DNA of 42,687 bases from Thermoplasmata archaeon. GTDB taxonomy: Archaea > Thermoplasmatota > Thermoplasmata > Thermoplasmatales > Thermoplasmataceae. Shown here piece by piece: positions 1 to 30,699 of the stretch. The notes below the pieces were generated by a model that had not been told where the DNA came from, did not search any database, and saw only the letters and a list, made by a program, of their open reading frames with translations. Made by a program: the position numbers and the translations under genes. Location of the stretch: positions 1-42,687 of the forward strand of contig JAJYRA010000010.1 in NCBI GenBank assembly GCA_021794355.1, written 5' to 3'. Positions within the stretch are counted from its first letter, which is position 1; the number at the start of each line of letters is the position of its first letter.

Positions 1-1
1 C

Positions 2-58
2 GGATTGTTAAAGAAGATCGGCTACGGAAAACTGTTTGACGAGAAAAAAGTGCCATAG
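2..58 (+). CDS. C-terminal end of a gene cut by the window edge
   Basis: An open frame enters from the left edge and ends at TAG 56-58. The visible tail is 18 residues, basic and ending LFDEKKVP. It is too short to assign. It lies about 175 bases upstream of the peptide-transporter operon on the same strand, so it could belong to a related transport gene, but nothing in the residues shows this. Confidence 0.45.
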   Translation, partial: GLLKKIGYGKLFDEKKVP

Positions 59-204
59 AAATGTAATAGGTAAAACCTGTCGCTATTCAAGTCATGAATT
101 TACCATAATGACAATGACTAAATAATGACTCTTTTTGTACTATCAGCAGAATCCATTAAATCGCTCAAGCCTTATTCCATTTTTTCATGTCAAAACCAAA
201 TAGG

Positions 205-213
205 TTAAATAAT
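205..213 (+). promoter_or_regulatory. TATA box of the peptide-transporter operon
   Basis: TTAAATAAT lies about 25 bases before ATG 234, the normal archaeal spacing from TATA box to transcript start. This implies an almost leaderless first gene and makes 234 the start of the operon. Inferred from spacing only. Confidence 0.5.
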
Positions 214-233: not shown

Positions 234-956
234 ATGGAATTACGAACTTTCACATTCAGAAGGGTGGTTACATTCTTCCCAGCACTCTTCCTCATTGTTT
301 TCCTGGTATTCCTCTTTGCAGGACCCGACCTACCGTCCACTGAGGATTTTCTTTCTCAGTTCATCTCCCATCTCCAGGTGGCAATGCACGGTAATTTTGT
401 ATATACTGGTTCTGCATTCTATGGTGGAACAGTAACAAAAGCAATTGAACTTTATTTCCCAACCACCCTCGAATTTGGAATATTCACTACCATGCTCACA
501 GTGATTATTACCATTTCCAAGGGTATTAGTATGGGAGGGCATTTCAACAGTATATCTAACCTTTCATCAAGAACCATATCTCCGGCTTTTTATGTCGTAC
601 CTGTTTTCGGGATAGCCATAATTTGGAGTATTATGAGACACCTGATTCCCAATAGACTCTCCAACGTAACAATTCAATCAGCACTGAACATTGGAAGCGT
701 AATTCTATTCCTGTCTGCAATAGAGTATATAAACGTGGGAAATGTGTTCGGTATTTCTAAATTAATGTCCAGAATGGGAAATCTCATTGCACAGGGTTCA
801 AGACTGATTTTCCTACATGGTGGTCTTTCCATGCGGTGGGTTATTATAACCACGACCCTATTGGTTATTCTATTGTGTGTAGGAGTAAATATTATGGGAG
901 TTGCACTGGGGGATATGCTTGATCAGGGAAGGAGGCGAATGAAAAATGGAGAATAA
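234..956 (+). CDS. Short DppB/DppC-hybrid ABC permease (oligopeptide family)
   Basis: Membrane subunit of a dipeptide/oligopeptide-type ABC transporter, 240 residues against about 300 for the family. The first ~130 residues follow DppB: an RRVVTFFPALFLIVFLVF start, a short outside stretch, then FPTTLEFGI and a SPAFYVVP turn. From about residue 135 (MRHLIPNRLSN) to the end it follows the last third of DppC: the RHxxPN end of the EAA loop, a long hydrophobic helix, MGNLIAQGSR, and a GVNIMGVALGDMLDQGRRR tail. The DppB C-terminal half and the DppC N-terminal half are missing, as if two adjacent permease genes had fused by an internal deletion. About five membrane segments are visible. It overlaps the next ATPase by 11 bases. 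Whether it still transports is unknown. Confidence 0.75.
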   Translation: MELRTFTFRRVVTFFPALFLIVFLVFLFAGPDLPSTEDFLSQFISHLQVAMHGNFVYTGSAFYGGTVTKAIELYFPTTLEFGIFTTMLTVIITISKGISMGGHFNSISNLSSRTISPAFYVVPVFGIAIIWSIMRHLIPNRLSNVTIQSALNIGSVILFLSAIEYINVGNVFGISKLMSRMGNLIAQGSRLIFLHGGLSMRWVIITTTLLVILLCVGVNIMGVALGDMLDQGRRRMKNGE

Positions 957-2457
957 TTCAGGAATAGATTTAAGGGAATCAAGACCACTTTTAGAAGTGG
1001 AAGATCTGGTAACGGTCAGTCTCAAGTCCAACGGAGAAATAAGAACGGTGGATGGTGTGAGTTTCCACATTGATAGGGGTGAAATATACGGCCTAGTTGG
1101 TGAAAGTGGCTCAGCAAAATCCACAATCGCAAAGTCTATTATGGATATAATACCGCAGGAGAAAGGTTACCCCATTGAGGGGAGAGTTTTATTCAACCAA
1201 ATGGATCTTCTATTCAACACCGGAAAAAAAGGCAAAAACAGTAAACAGGGAAAAAAGGGCAGGATTCACGATCAATTTATGACCAGTATAAGGGGAAGGT
1301 ATATTTCCCTGATAATGCAAGACTCCTTCAAAGCGATGAACCCAGACATTACCGTGGGACAGCATATGACAGAAACGCTCATGGCACACAGGATAACTTC
1401 CTTGTGTAATTCCATACTAAAGAGATCAGAATTAAGAAAAGATGATATATATGATTTGATCGAGGAAAGCAGACAGGAAGAATACAAGAATGAACAGGAT
1501 TCCCTGTTAAGCGAGATTTCTAAGAGGTTTGGTTTGGAAGGTTTTTACACTGAACTTTCAAAAATAGTCTCTTCTCAAGCAGATTATGAAGTTGCAGTAT
1601 CACGATTTATGTCCAGAGTGAAAGTTGAACTGAAAGAAAAGGAGAAAGACCGGATATCACTCCTATCAAAATACTATCAAAGAAATGAAATAATTATGGA
1701 AATGGAAGAGGAGATCATCCAGGGATTAAAGAGCAGTGAGGAAGTGGACATAGAGGACGAAAGGAAAAGATTTAAGAAGGATTTCTCTCCACTTGCCACG
1801 GAATTGTTCTTAAAAAAAAGTTCCCTATGGAAAACCATTCAAAAAGAGTCATGGGAAAGGTCACTGGAAATTCTCCGTTCACTTGGTATTGAAAACCCAG
1901 AAACAATAATGAATTATGTTCCTGATAAGCTTCCTCCAGGATTACGCCATATGTGTCTTTTTGCCATGGGAATTGTTACTGATCCAGAATTGGTCATTTT
2001 AGACGAGACCACATCGTCAATGGATGTAATCACACGGGGAAGACTACTGGATTTCATTGAAAAAAACAATCAATCCCAGGGAACTTCCTATCTCCTGATC
2101 ACCAATGAAATAACACTCTTGGCCGGAATATGCCACAGAATTGGAGTTATTTATGGAGGAAAACTCATAGAGGAATCCACCGGTTCTGAGATTTTTAGCA
2201 ACTCAAAGCATCCCTTTACCATCAACTATCTTTCCTCATCCATCGTCCCCTATGAAAATCTGGATGTAAACCTGCCACGGGACTTTATTGATGGAGAACC
2301 GCCCGATCCGGAAAATCCACCCAGTGGTTGCATGTTCCATCCAAGGTGCAAATTCGCAATGGATGTGTGTTCCTTTAAAATTCCAAAGTTGATCAATGTA
2401 ACACCAAGTCACAGGGTTGCCTGTTTCCTTTATTCCAACGAATCGGAGGTGCATTGA
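946..2457 (+). CDS. DppD-type ABC ATPase with altered catalytic motifs
   Basis: Nucleotide-binding subunit of the oligopeptide ABC family, 503 residues. Walker A is GESGSAKST (52-60, Ala where Gly is usual), the Q-loop is MQDSFKAMNP (Q125), and Walker B is LVILDE (D353, E354). The signature is LPPGL (329-333) where LSGGQ is expected. The switch His is replaced: ITNEI has Asn387. A charged, probably coiled-coil insertion of about 150 residues (~150-310) sits in the helical subdomain between Q-loop and signature. The C-terminal oligopeptide domain is present, with C462, C468, C475 and C493 in GCMFHPRC and following text. It overlaps the permease upstream and stops one base before the next ATPase. 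ATP hydrolysis is probably weak or changed; this is inferred from the motifs. Confidence 0.85.
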   Translation: MENNSGIDLRESRPLLEVEDLVTVSLKSNGEIRTVDGVSFHIDRGEIYGLVGESGSAKSTIAKSIMDIIPQEKGYPIEGRVLFNQMDLLFNTGKKGKNSKQGKKGRIHDQFMTSIRGRYISLIMQDSFKAMNPDITVGQHMTETLMAHRITSLCNSILKRSELRKDDIYDLIEESRQEEYKNEQDSLLSEISKRFGLEGFYTELSKIVSSQADYEVAVSRFMSRVKVELKEKEKDRISLLSKYYQRNEIIMEMEEEIIQGLKSSEEVDIEDERKRFKKDFSPLATELFLKKSSLWKTIQKESWERSLEILRSLGIENPETIMNYVPDKLPPGLRHMCLFAMGIVTDPELVILDETTSSMDVITRGRLLDFIEKNNQSQGTSYLLITNEITLLAGICHRIGVIYGGKLIEESTGSEIFSNSKHPFTINYLSSSIVPYENLDVNLPRDFIDGEPPDPENPPSGCMFHPRCKFAMDVCSFKIPKLINVTPSHRVACFLYSNESEVH

Positions 2458-2458
2458 A

Positions 2459-3904
2459 ATGGATGAATCCAGGGTTGTAATGTTTGTATCTCACCTATCT
2501 TTGAATTTAGATAGGGGAAAGAATAAGATATCGCCATGGATGGTTGAGAATGCTCTGGACGATATATCGTTCAAGCTCCATGAAGGTGAGGCTCTCGGAA
2601 TATTTGGCGAAACTGGAAGTGGAAAAACACTTCTTTTGGACACACTTCTTTATACCCAAAAACCTACGAAAGGAGATGTTTTCCTGAACGTTTCCGATGA
2701 ATTAAGGGTAGAAATAGAGGAAATCAACAGGAGAGTTTCAAAAATAAAAGCAGACCTGAGGGAGAAATATGGTTTCAATGAAGAGGAGGAGGAAATTGAG
2801 GGGAATGACGAACTGGATTTGCTTGAAGAAAGATATGAAGTAATATGCAGGGAAAATTCCCTGTCAAGAATGGGCAAGAAAGAACTCAACAAAATGAGGG
2901 GATATATCCAACCGGTCTTTCAGGAAATATTCAAGGCACTGGATCCGGCAAAAACTATCAGGGATTCCATAGGGGACCCCATGAAATTGGTACTCCACCT
3001 GTCTGATGAGGAGTTAAACTATAAAATTCTGTTCCATATCTCAGAGGTTGGCCTTAAGGAAGACATTCTGGGGAAATATCCAACAGAACTCAGTGTAAGC
3101 CAGTTGCAGAAGGTGAATCTGGTCAGGACATTTTCTGTAAATCCCAAAATCATCATTCTTGACGATCCCATGGCATACCTGGATGCCACTTCGAGGGCAA
3201 AGGTCTTGAATCTCCTCAGGAAAAAACAGAATGAGGAGAAAACCTCCCTGATTATCTTAAGCAATAATCTCGAGGTATTGAGAAGTTTCACCCAGAATGT
3301 GGCTGTTATACACAGGGGCAAGATAGTGGAGCATGGGTCCACCGATGAAATCTTTTCCAACGCAATGCATCCATATACAAAGATTATGGTATCGTCCATA
3401 CCGAACCCGGATCCATTTGTTATTCGTCAGAAAATTCAACTGAAAGGGCAGAGAACCTATTATGAACATTTGCCAACTGGATGTTCTTTTCATACCAGGT
3501 GCCCCAACGTGATGAAAAATTGTGGGTGGTCCACAGCAGATTTAATAGACTCTCTTAGGGACATGCTGGAGATTTCGAGATTGCATGATCCAGATTCACT
3601 GCCTGAAATAGAAAATATAGGTGTCGACGAGGCTGAAAACATCATGGAGATATCCTTCAGGGAAGGGGAAACTTATGATCAAAACCTTGTAAAAAGCAGA
3701 ATAGAGGAAATTATAAGGGAAAACTCCGAAAGGGAAAGGGTTCCAAGATTCCAATCTATAGAATTCATAGAATTTGACTCTGAAAGCAACAATCTAATCA
3801 TCCAGATCATGAAGCCAAAAAAACCAACTCCAATTGAAATCAGTGGGAAGCATACCGTCTCCTGTTTCATGTATGCATCCGGAGAAAATGAGGATGAACC
3901 CTAG
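2459..3904 (+). CDS. DppF-type ABC ATPase with altered catalytic motifs
   Basis: Second nucleotide-binding subunit of the same transporter, 481 residues. I chose ATG 2459 because GGAGGT at 2445-2450 gives a clear ribosome site; an upstream ATG at 2417 lies inside the previous gene. Walker A is normal (GETGSGKT, 50-57) and Q155 is present. The signature is LSVSQ (211-215), Walker B is IIILDD with Asp236 in place of the catalytic Glu, and the switch His is Asn269 (LSNNLEV). A charged insert (~80-145) lies between Walker A and the Q-loop, and a second insert interrupts the Cys-containing C-terminal domain (GCSFHTRC ... HTVSCFMY). Both ATPases lacking the switch His suggests a degenerate or repurposed ATPase pair. 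Confidence 0.85.
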   Translation: MDESRVVMFVSHLSLNLDRGKNKISPWMVENALDDISFKLHEGEALGIFGETGSGKTLLLDTLLYTQKPTKGDVFLNVSDELRVEIEEINRRVSKIKADLREKYGFNEEEEEIEGNDELDLLEERYEVICRENSLSRMGKKELNKMRGYIQPVFQEIFKALDPAKTIRDSIGDPMKLVLHLSDEELNYKILFHISEVGLKEDILGKYPTELSVSQLQKVNLVRTFSVNPKIIILDDPMAYLDATSRAKVLNLLRKKQNEEKTSLIILSNNLEVLRSFTQNVAVIHRGKIVEHGSTDEIFSNAMHPYTKIMVSSIPNPDPFVIRQKIQLKGQRTYYEHLPTGCSFHTRCPNVMKNCGWSTADLIDSLRDMLEISRLHDPDSLPEIENIGVDEAENIMEISFREGETYDQNLVKSRIEEIIRENSERERVPRFQSIEFIEFDSESNNLIIQIMKPKKPTPIEISGKHTVSCFMYASGENEDEP

Positions 3905-4034: not shown

Positions 4035-4934
4035 ATGCAGAACATCCCTTACATAATTCTCACCGAGGTACTGATGACCCCGCTCATAGTCTTCATCATA
4101 ATCTATGTATCAACAAGATACAGTTCCATGAACACAAGGGGAATTTCTCTCACCCTGTTCTTTCTGGCCATGATGTCCGGAATGCTCAATTCCATAAATT
4201 ATTACATACTGTTTCCACAGGGCTTCCTCAATGAGGTAATGGCCATAAATATCTCAATGTTTGAAATGACCATCATCATATCATACATATTGGTTTCTGC
4301 TTTTAATGGGAACATTGGAAGGATGACACGAACCCACTCCAAATGGATTGCAATCCTGGTGGGATGGAATGAAGTTTCCATGGCTCTTTTGCTCTATTCA
4401 CTGGCTTACGGATTTGGCAATAGTGGAACTCTCCTGAACACAGTAAATATTCTTGGGGCTGGTGTTACGAATTACCTGTTCACAATTCCCATGATCATTG
4501 AGATGCTTTCGCTGCTCTATCTCAGGCTTCATGGAGGCCTATCCATGAGAATTTCCATTGCCATAATTCTCATGCAGGCAACTGATCCAGGTCTTTTTGG
4601 TGGAACCTATTCCTTTCCTCTCACAATAGTATTCTCCATAGTTATGGTTGCAGTCCTTTACCTGATTCTTTCTTATACATACCGAAACAGGGGAAAACTG
4701 GAAGATGGATGGAGAAAGATCCTGAATTATTTCATATTCCTGATCCTCCTATCAGCCATTGGGCTCACTGCCAGCCTCATCGTACCCGGACCCTTTGGGG
4801 TCAGATGGATCATCTTCGCTCTCTCCATGGCCTTTTCCATGGTTTATTATTTCCTCATTTCGTTCAGGTTTTTTGACTCATCAACACCGGAAGGGATAAA
4901 GAGGAAACGAATGGAGAGCGAGAATCCAGAATGA
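4035..4934 (+). CDS. Multi-spanning membrane protein of unknown function
   Basis: A 299-residue, very hydrophobic protein with about eight membrane segments and a short charged tail (KRKRMESENPE). No catalytic motif is visible. Its N-terminal part resembles the first ~270 residues of the ferredoxin-domain membrane protein encoded head-on at 5007-6980. Shared features are a FLAMMSGML/LLAMMNGML helix, a following (W/D)E-containing helix, and a later IPMIIEM/FPMSLEM helix ending near YTYR/RLYR. It follows the peptide-transporter genes closely and probably belongs to the same transcript. I do not recognise a named family. Confidence 0.65.
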   Translation: MQNIPYIILTEVLMTPLIVFIIIYVSTRYSSMNTRGISLTLFFLAMMSGMLNSINYYILFPQGFLNEVMAINISMFEMTIIISYILVSAFNGNIGRMTRTHSKWIAILVGWNEVSMALLLYSLAYGFGNSGTLLNTVNILGAGVTNYLFTIPMIIEMLSLLYLRLHGGLSMRISIAIILMQATDPGLFGGTYSFPLTIVFSIVMVAVLYLILSYTYRNRGKLEDGWRKILNYFIFLILLSAIGLTASLIVPGPFGVRWIIFALSMAFSMVYYFLISFRFFDSSTPEGIKRKRMESENPE

Positions 4935-5006: not shown

Positions 5007-6980
5007 TCAGTCCTGTTTTTTTACTATTTTTTCCTTAAGAAAATTCCTCACGTCATAGAAGAATATATTTTCATAGGGGCAGGCTTCCACGCAATCTCCA
5101 ACCCCGACACATCTGGAATTCTTGAACTGCCCGTCGGAGATGAAGCTTCCAGGTTGGGAAGAGAGTCCCACTGGACAGGCTGTGGCGCAATCCTTTGTCT
5201 TGCAGGTTACACACTGTTTAGGGTCCCTGACCTTTAATTTAAAAAGGCCATGTTTACCGACAAACCTGTTAAAATTACCCCAATGGCAGTATCCTGTATT
5301 GATGCAACCGTAATTCCCGAAATAGGGCATTGTCAGAAATACTGCATACCACATTATATCGAACAGGATTATATAAATGAAAGCAAGGGGATCTGTTCCG
5401 TATAAATCATAGTTGATGTAATGGTAATGATACAGAAAAGAGAACAGGGCTGCAATGGCCAGTGATATGTATACGGTTAAGGAGGCAATCCTGTAAATTG
5501 TATTCCTTTCACCACCTTTACTTATATATTTCGCCGTTTTAGTGGTCCTGTTGAATTTCTTCATTGAATTATAAAAGGTACCCTGGTACATCATAGGAGC
5601 CGTGCAAAATACGGAGCACAGCTGCCTCGCACCAAAGAGAAGGGATAGAGAACCGCTTACCACATAGGTGAGAAGCATGGGTATTATGAGTGCGGGAACA
5701 AGACCACCTGCCGTACCAATGCCCATGGACCAGCCAAGAAAAGGATAAATTTTCGAATTGGAAACAATAAAACTGGGAATAAGGATACTGTATATACCAT
5801 AGGCCACAATCATGAGTCCCAGCCTTATCCTGTTTTCAAGTTCCCTGGTCTTCATGATTTTGAATACCACCAGTGAACCCATCTCAAAACCCATCATGAT
5901 GAGGAACCACGGGGAACCCGTAATACCTCCAACAAATATTATGGAATTATAGAAAAATTCCGGAATCACACTGAAAATAGATCCGGAAAATGGGGTCAGG
6001 CCAAGGCTGTTTATAAAAAATGATGTGCCATAATACTGGAAGTCAAAGGTGGCTCCCATGGCAAATTCTGCTATGAACACATCCACAAGGAACATGGTGG
6101 ACCATTTCTTATCGGCAAGCCAGTAAACCTTCCCCGATTCATGAAAATAATTTTTTCTGAGGATAGCGTTAATATACACAACCATCTCGGCAATTATGGC
6201 AATGGAGACAAGGATTTTCATGGAATTATACTGAAAAACCATGACACCTATCATCATGATTCCGTATATGAAAAGAATTTCCAGTATGTAGGATGAAAAA
6301 CGCCGTTTCACGAAACTGTCCCGGTACAGCCTTTCAAACATGAATATCAGGAGGACCGTCATAATCACTCCACTGGCAAAGATCGAGATGGATACCCAAA
6401 GGTTCCCTGATATTATGGTTGGGGTAAAAAACATTACAATGGACTGAAGCAGGATAAAAATGAAAGGTCTCCTGTCTTCATTTCTTATGGCCATAATTGC
6501 CGTGAGAGCCATTTCCAGGGACATGGGAAACACGAACCATGGTGATGAAACTGTCATGGAGAAAAGTCCGGGCAAATTGGAGCTAAACTGGGCAATTATA
6601 GTTCTTGAAGAAAGAAATGAGTTGAAATCAAGACTCATTAAGAATTCATCCAGTATGGTTAAAAAAATTATGAGTTTGAAGCTTATTTTGATATTTATAT
6701 TTTCATCCTCAATGGATCTGACAAACAGGATCAGGGGATATACTATTTCCAGGGACATCATTCCTGCAGAAAGGGCCACAGTGTCCGTAATTGAAATATT
6801 ACCTATTCCCGAGAAGTAAAAGGCTGGACCGAGGAGCATACCGTTCATCATCGCCAGCAATATGTATGTGAAAATTTTTCTCAGGGGATTATCCGAAGTT
6901 CTGGCCAGGAAAAGGATGTAAGAAGTTACTATGCCCATTAAAAGAGCAAGTGCCCCCAAGATCCAGAGAATCCAGTTCAT
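5007..6980 (-). CDS. Membrane protein with C-terminal 4Fe-4S ferredoxin domain
   Basis: A 657-residue protein with about 13-14 membrane segments, then a cytoplasmic cysteine-rich domain. The first cluster motif is complete: C590-x2-C593-x4-C598-x3-C602-P. The second, C624-x5-C630-x3-C634-P, has Val627 where the second Cys of CxxCxxCxxxCP should be, so it could hold a 3Fe-4S cluster or borrow a ligand. C559 and C565 (CINTGYCHWG) are candidates. The arrangement recalls NapH/NosR-type membrane electron-transfer proteins, which pass electrons between quinones and soluble partners, but the membrane part does not match them clearly. The N-terminal half is paralogous to the convergent protein at 4035-4934. 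Function: probable membrane redox protein, partner unknown. Confidence 0.7.
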   Translation of the reverse strand: MNWILWILGALALLMGIVTSYILFLARTSDNPLRKIFTYILLAMMNGMLLGPAFYFSGIGNISITDTVALSAGMMSLEIVYPLILFVRSIEDENINIKISFKLIIFLTILDEFLMSLDFNSFLSSRTIIAQFSSNLPGLFSMTVSSPWFVFPMSLEMALTAIMAIRNEDRRPFIFILLQSIVMFFTPTIISGNLWVSISIFASGVIMTVLLIFMFERLYRDSFVKRRFSSYILEILFIYGIMMIGVMVFQYNSMKILVSIAIIAEMVVYINAILRKNYFHESGKVYWLADKKWSTMFLVDVFIAEFAMGATFDFQYYGTSFFINSLGLTPFSGSIFSVIPEFFYNSIIFVGGITGSPWFLIMMGFEMGSLVVFKIMKTRELENRIRLGLMIVAYGIYSILIPSFIVSNSKIYPFLGWSMGIGTAGGLVPALIIPMLLTYVVSGSLSLLFGARQLCSVFCTAPMMYQGTFYNSMKKFNRTTKTAKYISKGGERNTIYRIASLTVYISLAIAALFSFLYHYHYINYDLYGTDPLAFIYIILFDIMWYAVFLTMPYFGNYGCINTGYCHWGNFNRFVGKHGLFKLKVRDPKQCVTCKTKDCATACPVGLSSQPGSFISDGQFKNSRCVGVGDCVEACPYENIFFYDVRNFLKEKIVKKQD

Positions 6981-7027: not shown

Positions 7028-8317
7028 TCAGATGAATAAGCTTTCAAGCCACAGGGTCATCAATGTGAGGAATAGCACGGGAATGCCAACAGCCAGCCCC
7101 AGTTTCATATAATCAACAGTCCTGATTTTCATCTTCGCCTTTCTGTCCAGCATATAGAGCCATACAAGTGTTGCAAGAGACCCAATTGGCGTGAACTTGG
7201 GACCAATATCATTACCTATGGCATTGGTCAGAAGAATCAATCCGGTCATGTGAAGATGCTGCAGGGTTAGATCACCAAGTAACACGGATGGTAAATTATT
7301 CATGAAAGAAGCGGAAAACGCGAACAGGAAGCCCGTTAAAACAAAGTTCATTCCATAGGGCAGTCCCTGGAAAGAACCAATCGCAATGGCCATAATAGAT
7401 ATCAATCCATTCTGGGCCAGTGCATAAACCACAATATACATCCCGATGGAAAAAAGGATAATCTGCCATGGGGCTTCCTTAACCGGTTTCACATAATCTA
7501 TCTTTTTACCCCTCCTGGCTAGGAGAAGCATGATCAGGGCGGCCGGCATAGACACAATTGAAACTGGAATATTGTAAAGCCCACCTATGGAATAAAGAAT
7601 AATGAGGGATAGAATAACTGGAAAGAAAAGCTTGAATATGAAAGGATCCTTGATCTCCTCCTGCCTGAACTCCACGTTTTCAGGTATCCTTTCAGGTATG
7701 TATTTCCTAAAATAGACAAAAAGAAAAAGAAGGCTGGCCGTAATACTGACAATGTCTGGAAGTACCATCACTTCCATGTAGGAAAAAAATTCTATGCCGA
7801 AATATGTAGCAGCTATTATGTTTACAAGATTACTGACAAGCAGTGGTATGCTGGCGGAATCTGCAATGAATCCAACTGCCATAACATAAGCAAATATGGC
7901 CTTTTTATCCATTCCTGCCCTGTAAAGTAGGGCCACGATTACCGGGGTCAAAACAAGTGCTGTTCCATCATTGGCAAAGAAGGCCGAAATGAACGACCCT
8001 CCAAGGATTGTTAAAAAAAACAGTCTCCTTCCTGACCCATTTGATTTAGCCAGTATCTTTGTGGCAAGGTATTCGAAAACTCCCGCCTCATCAAAAACAA
8101 GGGATATAATCACCACGGAAATAAAGGTCAGAGTGGCGTTCCATACGATAGATATAACATTGAGGAAATCTTCAAGGGTGGTAAAGCCGGCAAGCACCGT
8201 TATTATTGCACCTATGGATGCGGAATAGCCTATGCCGATTCCCCTGGGTTTCTTTATAACAAGAACAAGGGAAAATATGAAAATGGCAAGAGATGCTATA
8301 AAATAAAGATCATTCAA
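7028..8317 (-). CDS. arsB: ArsB arsenite efflux permease
   Basis: Arsenite exporter of the ArsB/NhaD ion-transporter superfamily, in the cytoplasmic membrane. The 429-residue length and 11-12 hydrophobic segments are as expected. Family features include the AFFANDGTALVLTPVI helix around residues 114-129, FMNNLPSVLL near 340, and a late TNAIGNDIGPKFTPIGS segment. It overlaps the end of arsC by 8 bases and is last of the arsR-arsC-arsB operon. Together with ArsC it would reduce arsenate and expel arsenite; no arsA ATPase is present, so export would be driven by the membrane potential. Confidence 0.9.
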   Translation of the reverse strand: MNDLYFIASLAIFIFSLVLVIKKPRGIGIGYSASIGAIITVLAGFTTLEDFLNVISIVWNATLTFISVVIISLVFDEAGVFEYLATKILAKSNGSGRRLFFLTILGGSFISAFFANDGTALVLTPVIVALLYRAGMDKKAIFAYVMAVGFIADSASIPLLVSNLVNIIAATYFGIEFFSYMEVMVLPDIVSITASLLFLFVYFRKYIPERIPENVEFRQEEIKDPFIFKLFFPVILSLIILYSIGGLYNIPVSIVSMPAALIMLLLARRGKKIDYVKPVKEAPWQIILFSIGMYIVVYALAQNGLISIMAIAIGSFQGLPYGMNFVLTGFLFAFSASFMNNLPSVLLGDLTLQHLHMTGLILLTNAIGNDIGPKFTPIGSLATLVWLYMLDRKAKMKIRTVDYMKLGLAVGIPVLFLTLMTLWLESLFI

Positions 8318-8708
8318 AAGACAGTTCCCTTACCCTTTTTTCAATCTCATCCCTTATTTTCCTGACCTCTTGCAGTGTTTTTCCCTTTGGATCTTCCAGG
8401 TTCCAATCTACAACCTTTTTCTCCATGGATCTGGCCAGGGGTGCCGGGCAGCTCTCTTCCACGGAGCAACCCATTATAACGACGAGATCTGAACTGTCTA
8501 TCATATCCTTTGTCAACATTCTTGGTTTTTCATCCTCAAAGGTTATGCCCTTTTCATTCATTGCCTGCTTTACAATCTCATTAATGCCTGCTGCGGGTTG
8601 AGTTCCTGCACTCTCACAGTTTATTCCATACTTCTTTCCGAATGCCTCTGCCATTTTGCTCCTTCCGGCATTTTCAACGCACAGGAACACAATCTTACTG
8701 TATTTCAT
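8310..8708 (-). CDS. arsC: ArsC arsenate reductase (LMW-phosphatase type)
   Basis: Reduces arsenate to arsenite in the cytoplasm. The 132-residue length matches the thioredoxin-coupled family, which shares the low-molecular-weight tyrosine phosphatase fold. The P-loop is C10-VENAG-R16-S17 right at the N-terminus. C81 and C87 (MGCSVEESCP) are the pair that carries the disulfide cascade, and the WNLEDPKG segment holds the conserved Asp-Pro. All catalytic residues are therefore present. It overlaps arsR by 14 bases and arsB by 8, so the three genes are translationally coupled. Confidence 0.93.
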   Translation of the reverse strand: MKYSKIVFLCVENAGRSKMAEAFGKKYGINCESAGTQPAAGINEIVKQAMNEKGITFEDEKPRMLTKDMIDSSDLVVIMGCSVEESCPAPLARSMEKKVVDWNLEDPKGKTLQEVRKIRDEIEKRVRELSFE

Positions 8709-9042
8709 CTAAGGGCACCTCCAGGTTTATCATATTTTGAGGCACCGCGGAATAATATGCCCATTTTCCCTTTCTCCTCCTTTTAATAAGACCTGAATTG
8801 AACAGCTCCTTAAGGCCTCCAGAAACCGTTGATTGTGGCAAATTGAGTAAATCTGATATTTCACATACGCATAATTCTGTCAAATTCAACGCATAATAGA
8901 TTTTTATCCTGTTCATGTCTGAAAGTGCTTTTCCTATCCTTTCTAAATTGTTAAATAAATCCTTTTCTTCAAAATTCCTCAGGGATCTTGTCAATTGATC
9001 CTTAACTCCATTATCAAGAACCCTGCATTGATCTTTTTCCAT
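8695..9042 (-). CDS. arsR: ArsR-family arsenic-responsive repressor
   Basis: Winged-helix repressor of the ars operon, 115 residues. The metalloid-sensing motif ELCVCE gives C58 and C60 in the first helix of the DNA-binding region, and LPQSTVSGGLKEL is the recognition helix. Arsenite binding to the Cys pair would release DNA. It is first gene of arsR-arsC-arsB. An inverted repeat sits immediately before its start codon, which implies autoregulation. An N-terminal extension of about 35 residues contains one more Cys (C6), a possible third ligand. Confidence 0.92.
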   Translation of the reverse strand: MEKDQCRVLDNGVKDQLTRSLRNFEEKDLFNNLERIGKALSDMNRIKIYYALNLTELCVCEISDLLNLPQSTVSGGLKELFNSGLIKRRRKGKWAYYSAVPQNMINLEVPLDEIQ

Positions 9043-23101: not shown

Positions 23102-24553
23102 ATGTCTCAACATAAATTTATAGACAGAAAAGAGGAGATAGAAATTCTCGAGAAATCATACTCAAGGGGTGGGGCAGGGCTCTTCATAATTTATGGAAGG
23201 AGAAGGGTTGGAAAGACAGAACTAATTAGCAAATTCATTGCTGGCAGAGGGGTATATTTTCTAGCAACAAACGAAGGAGACAGGGAAAACATTCGAGATT
23301 TCCAAAGAATAATTTCTGAATTTATAGGTGATTCCAGCCTAAGAAGTGGAGAGTTTCAGGACTGGTACTCACTTTTTTCCATGATCGCCAGCAACGGTCC
23401 ATTTCAGAGAAAATGCTCCGAATTTAAGGTTATAATTGCCATTGATGAGTTCCCATATCTCATAGAGGCAAACAGATCGATACCATCAATATTCCAGAAG
23501 ATATTTGATTCATTGCTCAGTCGCATGAATGTAATGCTCATCCTTTCCGGCTCCTCAATAAGTATTATGGAAAATGAGGTACTTTCTTATAAAAGCCCTT
23601 TGTATGGAAGAAGAACCGGTCAGTTGAGGGTTAACCCCCTGAATTTCAGGTATATCAAGGAGTTTCTCAATTATAATATGTTTGACCTCTGTAGAACTTA
23701 TTTTACTATAGGGGGAATTCCGGAATACATTCTAAAATTCCAGCCAGATCTTACATACAATGAAAACATTTACCGAAATATTTTATCCAAGGGTGCCCCG
23801 CTGTACGAAGAAGGGGAATTCCTGTTGAGAACTGAACTTAGGGAACCCAGGAATTATTCACTTATTCTACGTTCAATAGCCCACGGGAGTCATACTCTTG
23901 GAGAAATAGGCGCCTATACAGGAATGGACAAAAGTATGGTTTCAAAGTACATTGATGTTCTCATGTCACTGGAACTTATTAAGCCAGAAACCCCCTTTGG
24001 CGCTTCTGATAAATTTAAAAGGAGGCTCTATTGGATTTCTGACCCATACCTTTCTTTCTGGTTTAGATTTGTTCTCCCAAACAAGAGTGAAATTGAGGGT
24101 TCCCATTTGGTGGATTTTGGTAAAAAATTCCTTAGGGATTTCGAAACATATGCGGGTGAGCAATTTGAGAACCTTATGAAGAATCTGGTGGTTAATGGAA
24201 TTATGGGTAGAACTTTTGACCATGCGTCCAGATGGTGGGGAAGAAATAAATCAAAAAAAAGCGGAGAGGATATTGAAGAAATAGATATAGTTGCCATTTC
24301 CTGGCGAAGAAATGAACTTCTTTTTGCTGAATGTAAATGGACATCTAAACCCGTACCGGTTATAATAGTTAAAAGATTGATATGTAAATCAAAGCAGGTT
24401 TTGAAGCAATACCCAGAAAGTACTGTCACTTATGCAGTGTTTTCCAGATCTGGTTTTACGGGAGATATTAAGGAAATAGATGATAGGATTGTCCTGATGG
24501 ATCTCACTGACATGGAAAAGATATTGTTTCAGAATGTTGAAAAATCGAAATAA
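23102..24553 (+). CDS. Archaeal AAA+ ATPase with DUF234 nuclease-like domain
   Basis: 483 residues. Domain order: P-loop ATPase with Walker A YGRRRVGKT (31-39) and Walker B IIAIDEFPYL (D115, E116); a winged-helix region near 260-300 (LGEIGAYTGMDKSMVSKYID); and a C-terminal DUF234 domain whose EEIDIVAI (~393-400) and LFAECKW (~407-413) fit a PD-(D/E)xK nuclease core. These archaeal proteins are very common, often patchily distributed, and of unknown role, possibly mobile or toxin-like. It is monocistronic, full length, behind a palindromic promoter. Confidence 0.85.
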   Translation: MSQHKFIDRKEEIEILEKSYSRGGAGLFIIYGRRRVGKTELISKFIAGRGVYFLATNEGDRENIRDFQRIISEFIGDSSLRSGEFQDWYSLFSMIASNGPFQRKCSEFKVIIAIDEFPYLIEANRSIPSIFQKIFDSLLSRMNVMLILSGSSISIMENEVLSYKSPLYGRRTGQLRVNPLNFRYIKEFLNYNMFDLCRTYFTIGGIPEYILKFQPDLTYNENIYRNILSKGAPLYEEGEFLLRTELREPRNYSLILRSIAHGSHTLGEIGAYTGMDKSMVSKYIDVLMSLELIKPETPFGASDKFKRRLYWISDPYLSFWFRFVLPNKSEIEGSHLVDFGKKFLRDFETYAGEQFENLMKNLVVNGIMGRTFDHASRWWGRNKSKKSGEDIEEIDIVAISWRRNELLFAECKWTSKPVPVIIVKRLICKSKQVLKQYPESTVTYAVFSRSGFTGDIKEIDDRIVLMDLTDMEKILFQNVEKSK

Positions 24554-28820: not shown

Positions 28821-29462
28821 CTATGAACTTAGCCTCCTGATTTCGTTCTTTATCTCATCTATTACTTCGGTGTTGTAGATTACCTTTTTACCATTATCTT
28901 TGATCGTTATTACGTAGAAAACTCTACCGCCATGTTTCGTACGAAATCTCTCATGCGTTTTTTCTTGTAACCCTCTCTCTTTGAAAATCTCAGGAATGTG
29001 GGAAACGCCGTATGCAGGTTTTATTTGTAATCCAACGAATTTGTCATTCACTTTGATATAAAAGTCGACATTATACAATCTGTCCCATAGGTCTGGGGCA
29101 GGCTCTATTTTAACATTCAAAATATCCTGTAGTTGTCCATATATTGTTTGTCTTTCAGTAGTGTATCCGTCAAAAGTTCTGTTAATCACAAGGTCAATTA
29201 TGTAGTTTATACAATCATCTTCTGTTATATCGGCTATTTCAGCCTCCAACACTTCCGTTATCTTAACATACAACTTTCTGCCTAAATCAACTAAATGTTC
29301 TTTCGGTTTAACGTTTTTATAGTAATATTCTTCCCATTCATGTTCACTTCTGGGAGCACATTTTCTTATTTCTTCAGCAACTCTTCCAACGTTACGAGAA
29401 AAATTAAGCTGGAATCTGTTCGTGGCACTGTTTAATATCCATTCCTTAGGCATGTTGCACAT
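28821..29462 (-). CDS. MjaI-like type II restriction endonuclease
   Basis: 213 residues matching the MjaI endonuclease family: an N-terminal KEWILNSATNRFQLNFSRNV and PRSEHEWEEYYYKNVKP block, then a catalytic core VDFYIKVND ... VGLQIKPAYG (D133, Q146, K148), a PD-(D/E)xK variant with Gln. MjaI cuts CTAG, so that site is a reasonable guess. The gene overlaps the 3' end of the methyltransferase by 17 bases. It appears complete. Confidence 0.78.
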   Translation of the reverse strand: MCNMPKEWILNSATNRFQLNFSRNVGRVAEEIRKCAPRSEHEWEEYYYKNVKPKEHLVDLGRKLYVKITEVLEAEIADITEDDCINYIIDLVINRTFDGYTTERQTIYGQLQDILNVKIEPAPDLWDRLYNVDFYIKVNDKFVGLQIKPAYGVSHIPEIFKERGLQEKTHERFRTKHGGRVFYVITIKDNGKKVIYNTEVIDEIKNEIRRLSS

Positions 29463-30699
29463 CCTCCAATTTTATATTAGCAAAGACCTCTCTATACCTA
29501 AAATTATAAGGGGCAATTTCCCCTATCCCTTTTTTTAGTAGTTCCTTATTTAAGAAAATTTTGTTCTTCAAAAATACATAGGCAGAGATGGTATCACCTT
29601 CAGGGGTAAACTGTGGATCGAATTTTAAGAATACCTGTTTACCCTTAGCATACTCTTCCAGGTATTTTATAGCCTCATTTTTTTTGGAAGGGGGAATGCT
29701 AACACCTAGAAATTTTACCATTAAACCCGTGTCCAACTTAATCAAATTTTCTTTCAAAATCTCTCCAACTTTGTAAAGTCTTTCGCCTTCAAATTTGAAT
29801 TTGTCAGGGGATATTACAGGTTCAGCATCTTGAATAGTTGGGGAATAATCATCACCTGCAAAGAAACTAACTACCTTCTCTCTACGAACTATTTCAATTT
29901 TATTATCGTCAAATAGCTTTGGACTATCTATACCGACTTTCTTTTTAATTGTGGGCAAAAATTCCTGATTAATTTCGTAGCCAATTGAGTTTCTATTAAG
30001 GTCAAGAGCAACCTTAGAAGTAGTCCCACTACCCAAAAATGGGTCCAATACCGTATCTCCTACAAAACTGAACATCTTAATTAGTCTTTTTGGCAATTCT
30101 TCTGGGAACATAGCCTGATGATCAATCTGTCTTTCACCTGAGAATGCCCAATGACCATTGAAATATTCTTTCCACTCCTCTTTCGAAAGTTTCGATTCTT
30201 CCTTCATTTTCATTGATATATCGTTTCTCCTTCCCTGCTTCTTAAATATCAATATAAATTCATAATCTATCTCTATTAACCCATTTGGAGGGTAAGGATA
30301 TGAGCCCATCACATTAGCTCCACCTGTGGTATTCATTGTTGTTTTCTTCTGCCAAATTATAGACCCCATATAGTCAAAACCTATCTTTTCACATTGAGAT
30401 ATAAATTCCGAATGGAGAGGGGCAATCTTGTATCTTCCATAAACTATACTTCTCAGAAATTGGTCACCAATATTTATGCAAAGTCTCGATCCAGGTGCTA
30501 AAACTCTGTAGGTCTCTTTCCACACTGAATACAAGTCTTTCAAATATTGATGGAGGGTTTGGTCGTATCCTATTTGTCCAGTTACACCGTAGTCCTTGAT
30601 GCTCCAGTATGGTGGAGAAGTAATCACCATTTGAACACTCTCATTTTTAACTTCCTTCATATCGCGTGCATCAGCAATTATAATTTTATGTTCCGTCAT
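29446..30699 (-). CDS. Beta-class DNA methyltransferase with SNase-like C-terminal domain
   Basis: 417 residues. The catalytic motif TSPPYW (27-32) precedes the SAM motif DPFLGSGTT (219-227), the order of beta-class amino methyltransferases; TSPPY favours N4-cytosine. Residues ~300-410 form a staphylococcal-nuclease-like OB domain (LMVKFLGVSIPP, AKGKQVFLKFDPQFTPEGD, LNKELLKKGIG). Its catalytic Arg, Glu and Arg positions are not conserved, so it is probably a binding module. It would protect the host from the neighbouring endonuclease. First gene of the pair. Confidence 0.82.
   Translation of the reverse strand: MTEHKIIIADARDMKEVKNESVQMVITSPPYWSIKDYGVTGQIGYDQTLHQYLKDLYSVWKETYRVLAPGSRLCINIGDQFLRSIVYGRYKIAPLHSEFISQCEKIGFDYMGSIIWQKKTTMNTTGGANVMGSYPYPPNGLIEIDYEFILIFKKQGRRNDISMKMKEESKLSKEEWKEYFNGHWAFSGERQIDHQAMFPEELPKRLIKMFSFVGDTVLDPFLGSGTTSKVALDLNRNSIGYEINQEFLPTIKKKVGIDSPKLFDDNKIEIVRREKVVSFFAGDDYSPTIQDAEPVISPDKFKFEGERLYKVGEILKENLIKLDTGLMVKFLGVSIPPSKKNEAIKYLEEYAKGKQVFLKFDPQFTPEGDTISAYVFLKNKIFLNKELLKKGIGEIAPYNFRYREVFANIKLEDVQHA

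Follow-up and report, generated by a model that had tools for sequence, protein, structure and literature searches.

The window, the whole 42,687-nucleotide stretch of DNA analysed here from an uncultured, heat- and acid-type Thermoplasmata archaeon, carries near its left end a tight operon whose first gene, an open reading frame at 234–956 (+ strand) with an ATG start, encodes a 240-residue permease. The genes for two ABC ATPases, one DppD-like and one DppF-like, follow directly, and the end of the permease gene overlaps the start of the first of them at position 946 (Table 1). The promoter element lies 21 bp upstream of the permease ATG and occurs once in the whole genome. It is also found 5' of the operon in two sister species of the same genus, G009 and G011, with zero mismatches (W = A/T; the copies are identical bar one base), and 5' of the canonical operon in four relatives (G002, G005, G006 and G010) with 3 mismatches. 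This operator-like element could be the target of a dedicated regulator.

Table 1 Positions and contents of the operon features in the window, followed by the two sister operons
Feature	Position	Strand	Description
Promoter element	192–212	+	21 bp; AAAACCAAATAGGTTAAATAA / AAAACCAAATAGGTTAWATAA; AACC-n5-GGTT inverted repeat directly before TATA box
DppB-derived half of hybrid	234–626	+	Residues 1–131: TM1, shortened periplasmic loop, TM2, TM3
Junction zone	620–635 (about)	+	After residue 129–134, from scan against G009 and G011; peptide across junction VPVFGIAIIWSIMRHLIPN
DppC-derived half of hybrid	627–956	+	Residues 132–240: RHLIPN, TM5, TM6, cytoplasmic tail
ATPase 1 (DppD-like, 503 aa)	946–2457	+	Pfam ABC_tran and oligo_HPY
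ATPase 1 motifs			Walker A GESGSAKS, signature LPPGLRH, D-loop SSMD, H-loop TNE
ATPase 1 Fe-S cysteines kept			C462, C468, C475, C493
ATPase 2 (DppF-like, 481 aa)	2459–3904	+	Pfam ABC_tran and oligo_HPY
ATPase 2 motifs			Walker A GETGSGKT (intact), signature LSVSQ, Walker B DDP, H-loop SNN
ATPase 2 Fe-S cysteines kept			C342, C348, C355, C469
299-aa membrane protein	4035–4934	+	No Pfam match; synteny marker and slow-evolving local control
Sister operon, G009	L051, 6548–9542		dppB and dppC intact, ATPase motifs disabled, no substrate-binding protein
Sister operon, G011	L052, 13284–15805		As for G009; contig JAKAVO010000021.1, Thermoplasmata archaeon YP4.bin104

Downstream of the ATPases lies the gene for a 299-aa membrane protein, which adjoins the operon in G009 as well and in canonical relatives stands after the gene for the substrate-binding protein (SBP); it is a possible functional partner of the operon. 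Further on, a 657-aa membrane ferredoxin (5007–6980) adjoins an arsenic-resistance cluster on the - strand (7028–9042) composed of an ArsB-like pump, an ArsC-like reductase and an ArsR-like regulator. Elsewhere in the window, the genes at 23102–24553 and 29446–30699 encode an archaeal ATPase_2/DUF234 protein and an N6/N4 DNA methylase.

The sequence-only reading had described the permease as DppB in its first half and the C-terminal part of DppC in its second, and this observation is confirmed. With DppB and DppC profiles built from proteins of the order, residues 1–132 score 67.2 bits against DppB and -3.8 against DppC, while residues 133–240 score 78.3 bits against DppC and -0.3 against DppB. 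A match to one permease subfamily from end to end, which would speak against a hybrid, was looked for with the same profiles, and two subfamilies were found. The NCBIfam models agree with the split, covering approximately residues 5–165 (SapB/NikB/Opp4B) and 124–231 (OppC/DppC/DDP-C), and Pfam PF00528 gives no match to the hybrid even at E 10. Alignment with the full-length proteins of relatives, which the same reading had proposed as a means of marking the breakpoint, places it after residue 129–134, with DppB 1–131 continuing in frame into the final ~105 residues of DppC. The first half is 38–41% identical to DppB 1–130 of G009 and G011, and the second 49–56% identical to their DppC 238–337. 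Each half of the hybrid thus matches one parent, and the parental pair is intact in both species.

In the RpoB tree, the window's species, G009 and G011 form one clade (bootstrap 100, 93.6–96.2% identity), and their loci are orthologous. The complete genome of G009 has, in order, dppB (333 aa), dppC (339 aa), ATPase 1 (513 aa), ATPase 2 (483 aa) and the 299-aa membrane protein, followed by a 659-aa ferredoxin-like protein and then, on the opposite strand, by ArsB and ArsC. Gene order in the window is identical except that the 240-aa hybrid replaces dppB–dppC. Full-length dppB (336 aa) and dppC (339 aa) likewise stand 5' of the ATPases in G011, whose contig ends within ATPase 2. The check proposed in the sequence-only reading, whether relatives keep two permease genes, thus has a positive outcome. 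Compared with G009, ~1,320 bp (440 codons' worth) are lost in the window, the gap running between DppB codon ~131 and DppC codon ~233. Synteny, the profile split and the junction scan together support the proposed in-frame internal deletion joining adjacent genes, and it is nearly certain that the hybrid arose by an in-frame ~1.3-kb deletion fusing dppB and dppC of an Opp/Dpp-type importer; descent from a dppBCDF operon is further indicated by the promoter element and the profile matches. Upstream of the hybrid synteny is broken, because window positions 1–57 hold the end of a + strand gene (its product ending in KKIGYGKLFDEKKVP) unlike the - strand 316-aa gene found upstream of dppB in G009 and G011.

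The lost parts of dppB and dppC were sought in the hybrid's own genome with full G011 DppB and DppC, and the search returned the hybrid and remote paralogues only. One PF00528 fragment, on contig C71 (L019), was considered as a lost part and rejected, having no tblastn match to dppB or dppC of the sister species. No other hybrid was found in 61 relatives or in 400 genomes of the class, where all other matches are separate genes encoding ~300–400 aa, bar a few shortened at contig ends; related loci sought with the hybrid in GTDB genomes yielded no relative. Two peculiarities of other loci were seen. One otherwise canonical operon (L187 of G100) has a dppC ORF of just 187 aa at 8076–8639, possibly owing to a frameshift or assembly error. 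Loci L055 (G026, contig C79) and L179 (G001, contig C90), from two genera, encode DppB, DppC and ATPases that agree exactly in length and in profile score, and their neighbours are almost the same, which suggests contamination of G026 by the G001 species.

The ATPases of this clade depart from the canonical pattern, which was defined on 23 operons, taken from 22 further genomes in the order. Near-constant motifs in these are GESG[CS]GKS, LSGGM, DEPTT[AS]LD and THDL in ATPase 1, and GETGCGKT, FSGGQ, DEPTSALD and SHHL in ATPase 2. The signature (LSGGM/FSGGQ), the H-loop (THD/SHH) and DEPT..LD are invariant in 23 of 23 canonical operons and changed in all three clade members, in which ATPase 1 reads LPPG[IL]RH, SSMD and TNE[IM], and ATPase 2 reads LSxS, DDPxA[YF]LD and S[SN]NL. 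The LSGGQ signature and the H-loop histidine are lost from both ATPases in the window, G009 and G011, and the predicted composite ATP sites are both hit by these losses. The replacement of GK by AK in the Walker A motif of ATPase 1 is confined to the window; G009 and G011 have GESNSGKT. The pair does not present the combination of Walker A/B, LSGGQ and H-loop histidine that marks hydrolysis-competent ATPases. Both ATPases keep the oligo_HPY C-terminal domain (PF08352) with four Fe-S cysteines, whose roles as ligands are taken from E. coli DppBCDF; in that complex the cysteines are essential for assembly, and losing them dissolves the complex (PMC12136057).

The dedicated SBP of an Opp/Dpp importer is missing as well. 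The SBP of the canonical operon (954 aa) has no match genome-wide in the window's genome (G000), in the complete genome of G009 or in G011; it is found in 7 of the 9 remaining genomes of the genus, with its gene beside the canonical operon. The DppB segment from TM1 to the conserved GNxG, corresponding to the TM1–TM2 scoop, spans 22 residues in the window, G009 and G011 versus 46–51 in most canonical relatives. In E. coli, DppA is the docking site of the scoop motif and is required for DppBCDF to be active (PMC12136057). We infer that SBP, scoop and ATP motifs were lost in the common ancestor of the three species, and that the permeases fused later, in the window's species only. One archaeal genus displays three consecutive states of an importer: the canonical one, an SBP-less one with disabled ATP sites, and the latter with fused permeases.

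The explanation that we favour, with a probability of about 0.58, is that a decommissioned peptide importer is kept as a non-transporting complex of membrane subunits and Fe-S pseudo-ATPases, its permease pair having collapsed to a short anchor in the window's species. The fusion took place in a lineage whose importer had already lost its SBP, half of the DppB scoop and the signature and H-loop motifs; under this explanation, the complex would no longer import peptides or cycle ATP. The Fe-S pseudo-ATPase pair would stay attached to the membrane in another role, which may be that of a scaffold, sensory or ATP-binding-only, and the hybrid would serve the ATPases as a minimal membrane anchor. 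More tentatively, the two Fe-S-bearing pseudo-ATPases on one deletion-made mini-permease could act specifically as a sensor or scaffold, in which the Fe-S domains and a regulated promoter would be under selection while the ATP cycle and substrate handling would be gone; we regard this narrower version as possible but doubtful.

Retention under selection is argued for by the open ORFs, the low dN/dS, the shared new residues, the Fe-S cysteines and the conserved promoter. The ORFs are open in all three species, with none of the stops or frameshifts of a pseudogene and a dN/dS well away from 1. Estimated by NG86, the operon's dN/dS is about 0.1–0.2 (≤ ~0.2), a value averaged over the time before and after the deletion and to be read, as in all comparisons, as a bound only since dS is saturated; differences at second codon positions are about half as frequent as those at third positions. 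At ATPase 1 positions that are invariant in canonical operons and changed in all three species, the same new residue occurs in 23 of 51 cases, while freely variable columns show this in 49 of 225 (p = 0.001). The same shared-replacement (type-II) test on ATPase 2 was not significant.

The main rival is slow, ongoing gene decay, in which the importer became useless after SBP loss, constraint fell, the deletion was one more step, and the frames that are still open will soon be lost. The stepwise loss, from SBP to scoop and ATPase motifs to permease, fits this course, and so does the tempo of change. Non-synonymous proportions in the operon are 0.18–0.25 between G009 and G011 and 0.32–0.40 between the window and G009, compared with 0.14 in the 299-aa gene (window–G009) and 0.05–0.09 in canonical operon pairs. 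The operon's proteins therefore change several-fold faster than those of canonical relatives at equal synonymous divergence, and the acceleration is confined to the operon, the neighbouring 299-aa gene being unaffected. On the window branch, which alone carries the Walker A Gly-to-Ala change, change in the permease is about double that in the permeases of the sisters, whereas change in the ATPases is about equal. Otherwise conserved sites are lost in 43% of cases in the permease versus 18% in the ATPases (p = 0.0002), or in 38% versus 21% with a single outgroup (p = 0.006). This operon-wide acceleration, together with the roughly twofold faster hybrid, fits relaxed selection and counts against a kept complex. 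In a neutral simulation, the hybrid's excess change (~0.1–0.15 substitutions per site) leaves the frame open with a probability of 5–13%; a neutral course for the hybrid is thus disfavoured, yet because of this chance of meeting no stop the hybrid alone does not exclude it. Against decay stands that two ATPase ORFs of ~500 codons remain open in three species at saturated synonymous sites and dN/dS ≤ 0.2, that new residues at the old motif sites are common to the species, and that promoter and Fe-S cysteines are conserved. We consider decay less likely, and the retained, non-transporting complex the better account.

The remaining functional alternative is that the hybrid forms a homodimer, works together with the two ATPases and retains some transport activity, as the sequence-only reading had thought possible. 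Homodimeric type I permeases exist, e.g., MetI and ModB, and provide a precedent. The hybrid also heads the operon; the two ATPases follow it immediately, and the start of the first overlaps its end. Its architecture, however, argues against a working translocator. The hybrid keeps TM1–TM3 of DppB and TM5 and TM6 of DppC, without TM4, and the deleted stretch holds the coupling (EAA) helices of both parents. The RHxxPN part of the EAA loop, which had been noted as kept, is indeed present as RHLIPN, being only the tail of the coupling region. The operon accordingly does not encode two full-length membrane subunits of the PF00528 fold with coupling helices. With TM3 joined directly to TM5, the in/out alternation is lost, and a cytoplasmic position of both positively charged ends would require a TM3 that is re-entrant or expelled; the most likely topology would have four crossings, a re-entrant or expelled TM3 and both termini in the cytoplasm. 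AlphaFold modelled the hybrid with a pTM of 0.40 and a pLDDT of 36–47 around the junction, and intact DppC of G011, taken as a control, with a pTM of 0.74 despite a shallower alignment. The low confidence at the junction also speaks against a kept complex, but the poor model of the hybrid carries little weight because its alignment covers the two halves in separate rows. A Foldseek search of the model against the PDB gave nothing significant, the top matches being DppB/DppC at E 0.7–3.8. In E. coli DppBCDF, each contact between the transmembrane and nucleotide-binding domains is made by a coupling helix, the link from TM4 to TM5, and the translocator is inactive without its SBP (PMC12136057). 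With both coupling helices gone, signature and H-loop lost in both ATPases, the Walker A of ATPase 1 damaged and no SBP, a transporting homodimer is very improbable.

Least probable of all is an assembly artefact misjoining two contigs or strains across dppB–dppC: the genome is metagenome-style, in 89 contigs, and the junction lies ~620 bp from a contig end, but the junction is in frame, no other part of the 97% complete genome holds the lost halves, the two halves of the hybrid stand at similar divergence from the sister species and show the peculiarities of the clade, and the downstream region is collinear with the complete genome of G009.

If the retained, non-transporting complex is indeed functional, it reveals which parts of a type I importer are dispensable while assembly is still selected, the kept parts being the Fe-S domains, the promoter and TM1, TM2, TM5 and TM6. 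If the operon is instead decaying, it is a clean and datable case of how such machines are dismantled. Either way, automatic annotation of the two ATPases as a working peptide transporter is misleading.

In the open-access literature, we found no description of a natural DppB–DppC or OppB–OppC hybrid, nor of the present combination of a deletion hybrid, degeneration of both ATP sites, absence of an SBP and apparently continued selection, although the parts come from a known family. Our comparison with the Opp/Dpp (peptide/nickel, PepT) type I ABC importers, represented by E. coli DppABCDF (PDB 8z1v and related), reveals the same gene order, B-C-D-F, with all parts homologous, the same oligo_HPY domains with four Fe-S cysteines per ATPase, and the DppD cysteine spacing (6, 7, 18) in ATPase 1. 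Unlike E. coli DppABCDF, the window encodes one short fused permease without a coupling helix, the scoop is halved, no SBP is present, and the signature, the H-loop and, in ATPase 2, the catalytic glutamate are replaced. The operon of G009 and G011 shares with the window the promoter, the degenerate ATPase motifs, the short scoop and the lack of an SBP, with the same downstream neighbours in G009, whereas it differs in that dppB and dppC are two genes of full length and have EAA-like loops. Retained ABC ATPases in which signature and catalytic residues are altered are likewise known among proteins with degenerate nucleotide sites, such as MsRv1273c/72c, SUR and CFTR. In these, one site remains competent and the membrane domains are of full length, while in the window neither site has its signature and H-loop residues left and a deletion hybrid makes up the membrane part.
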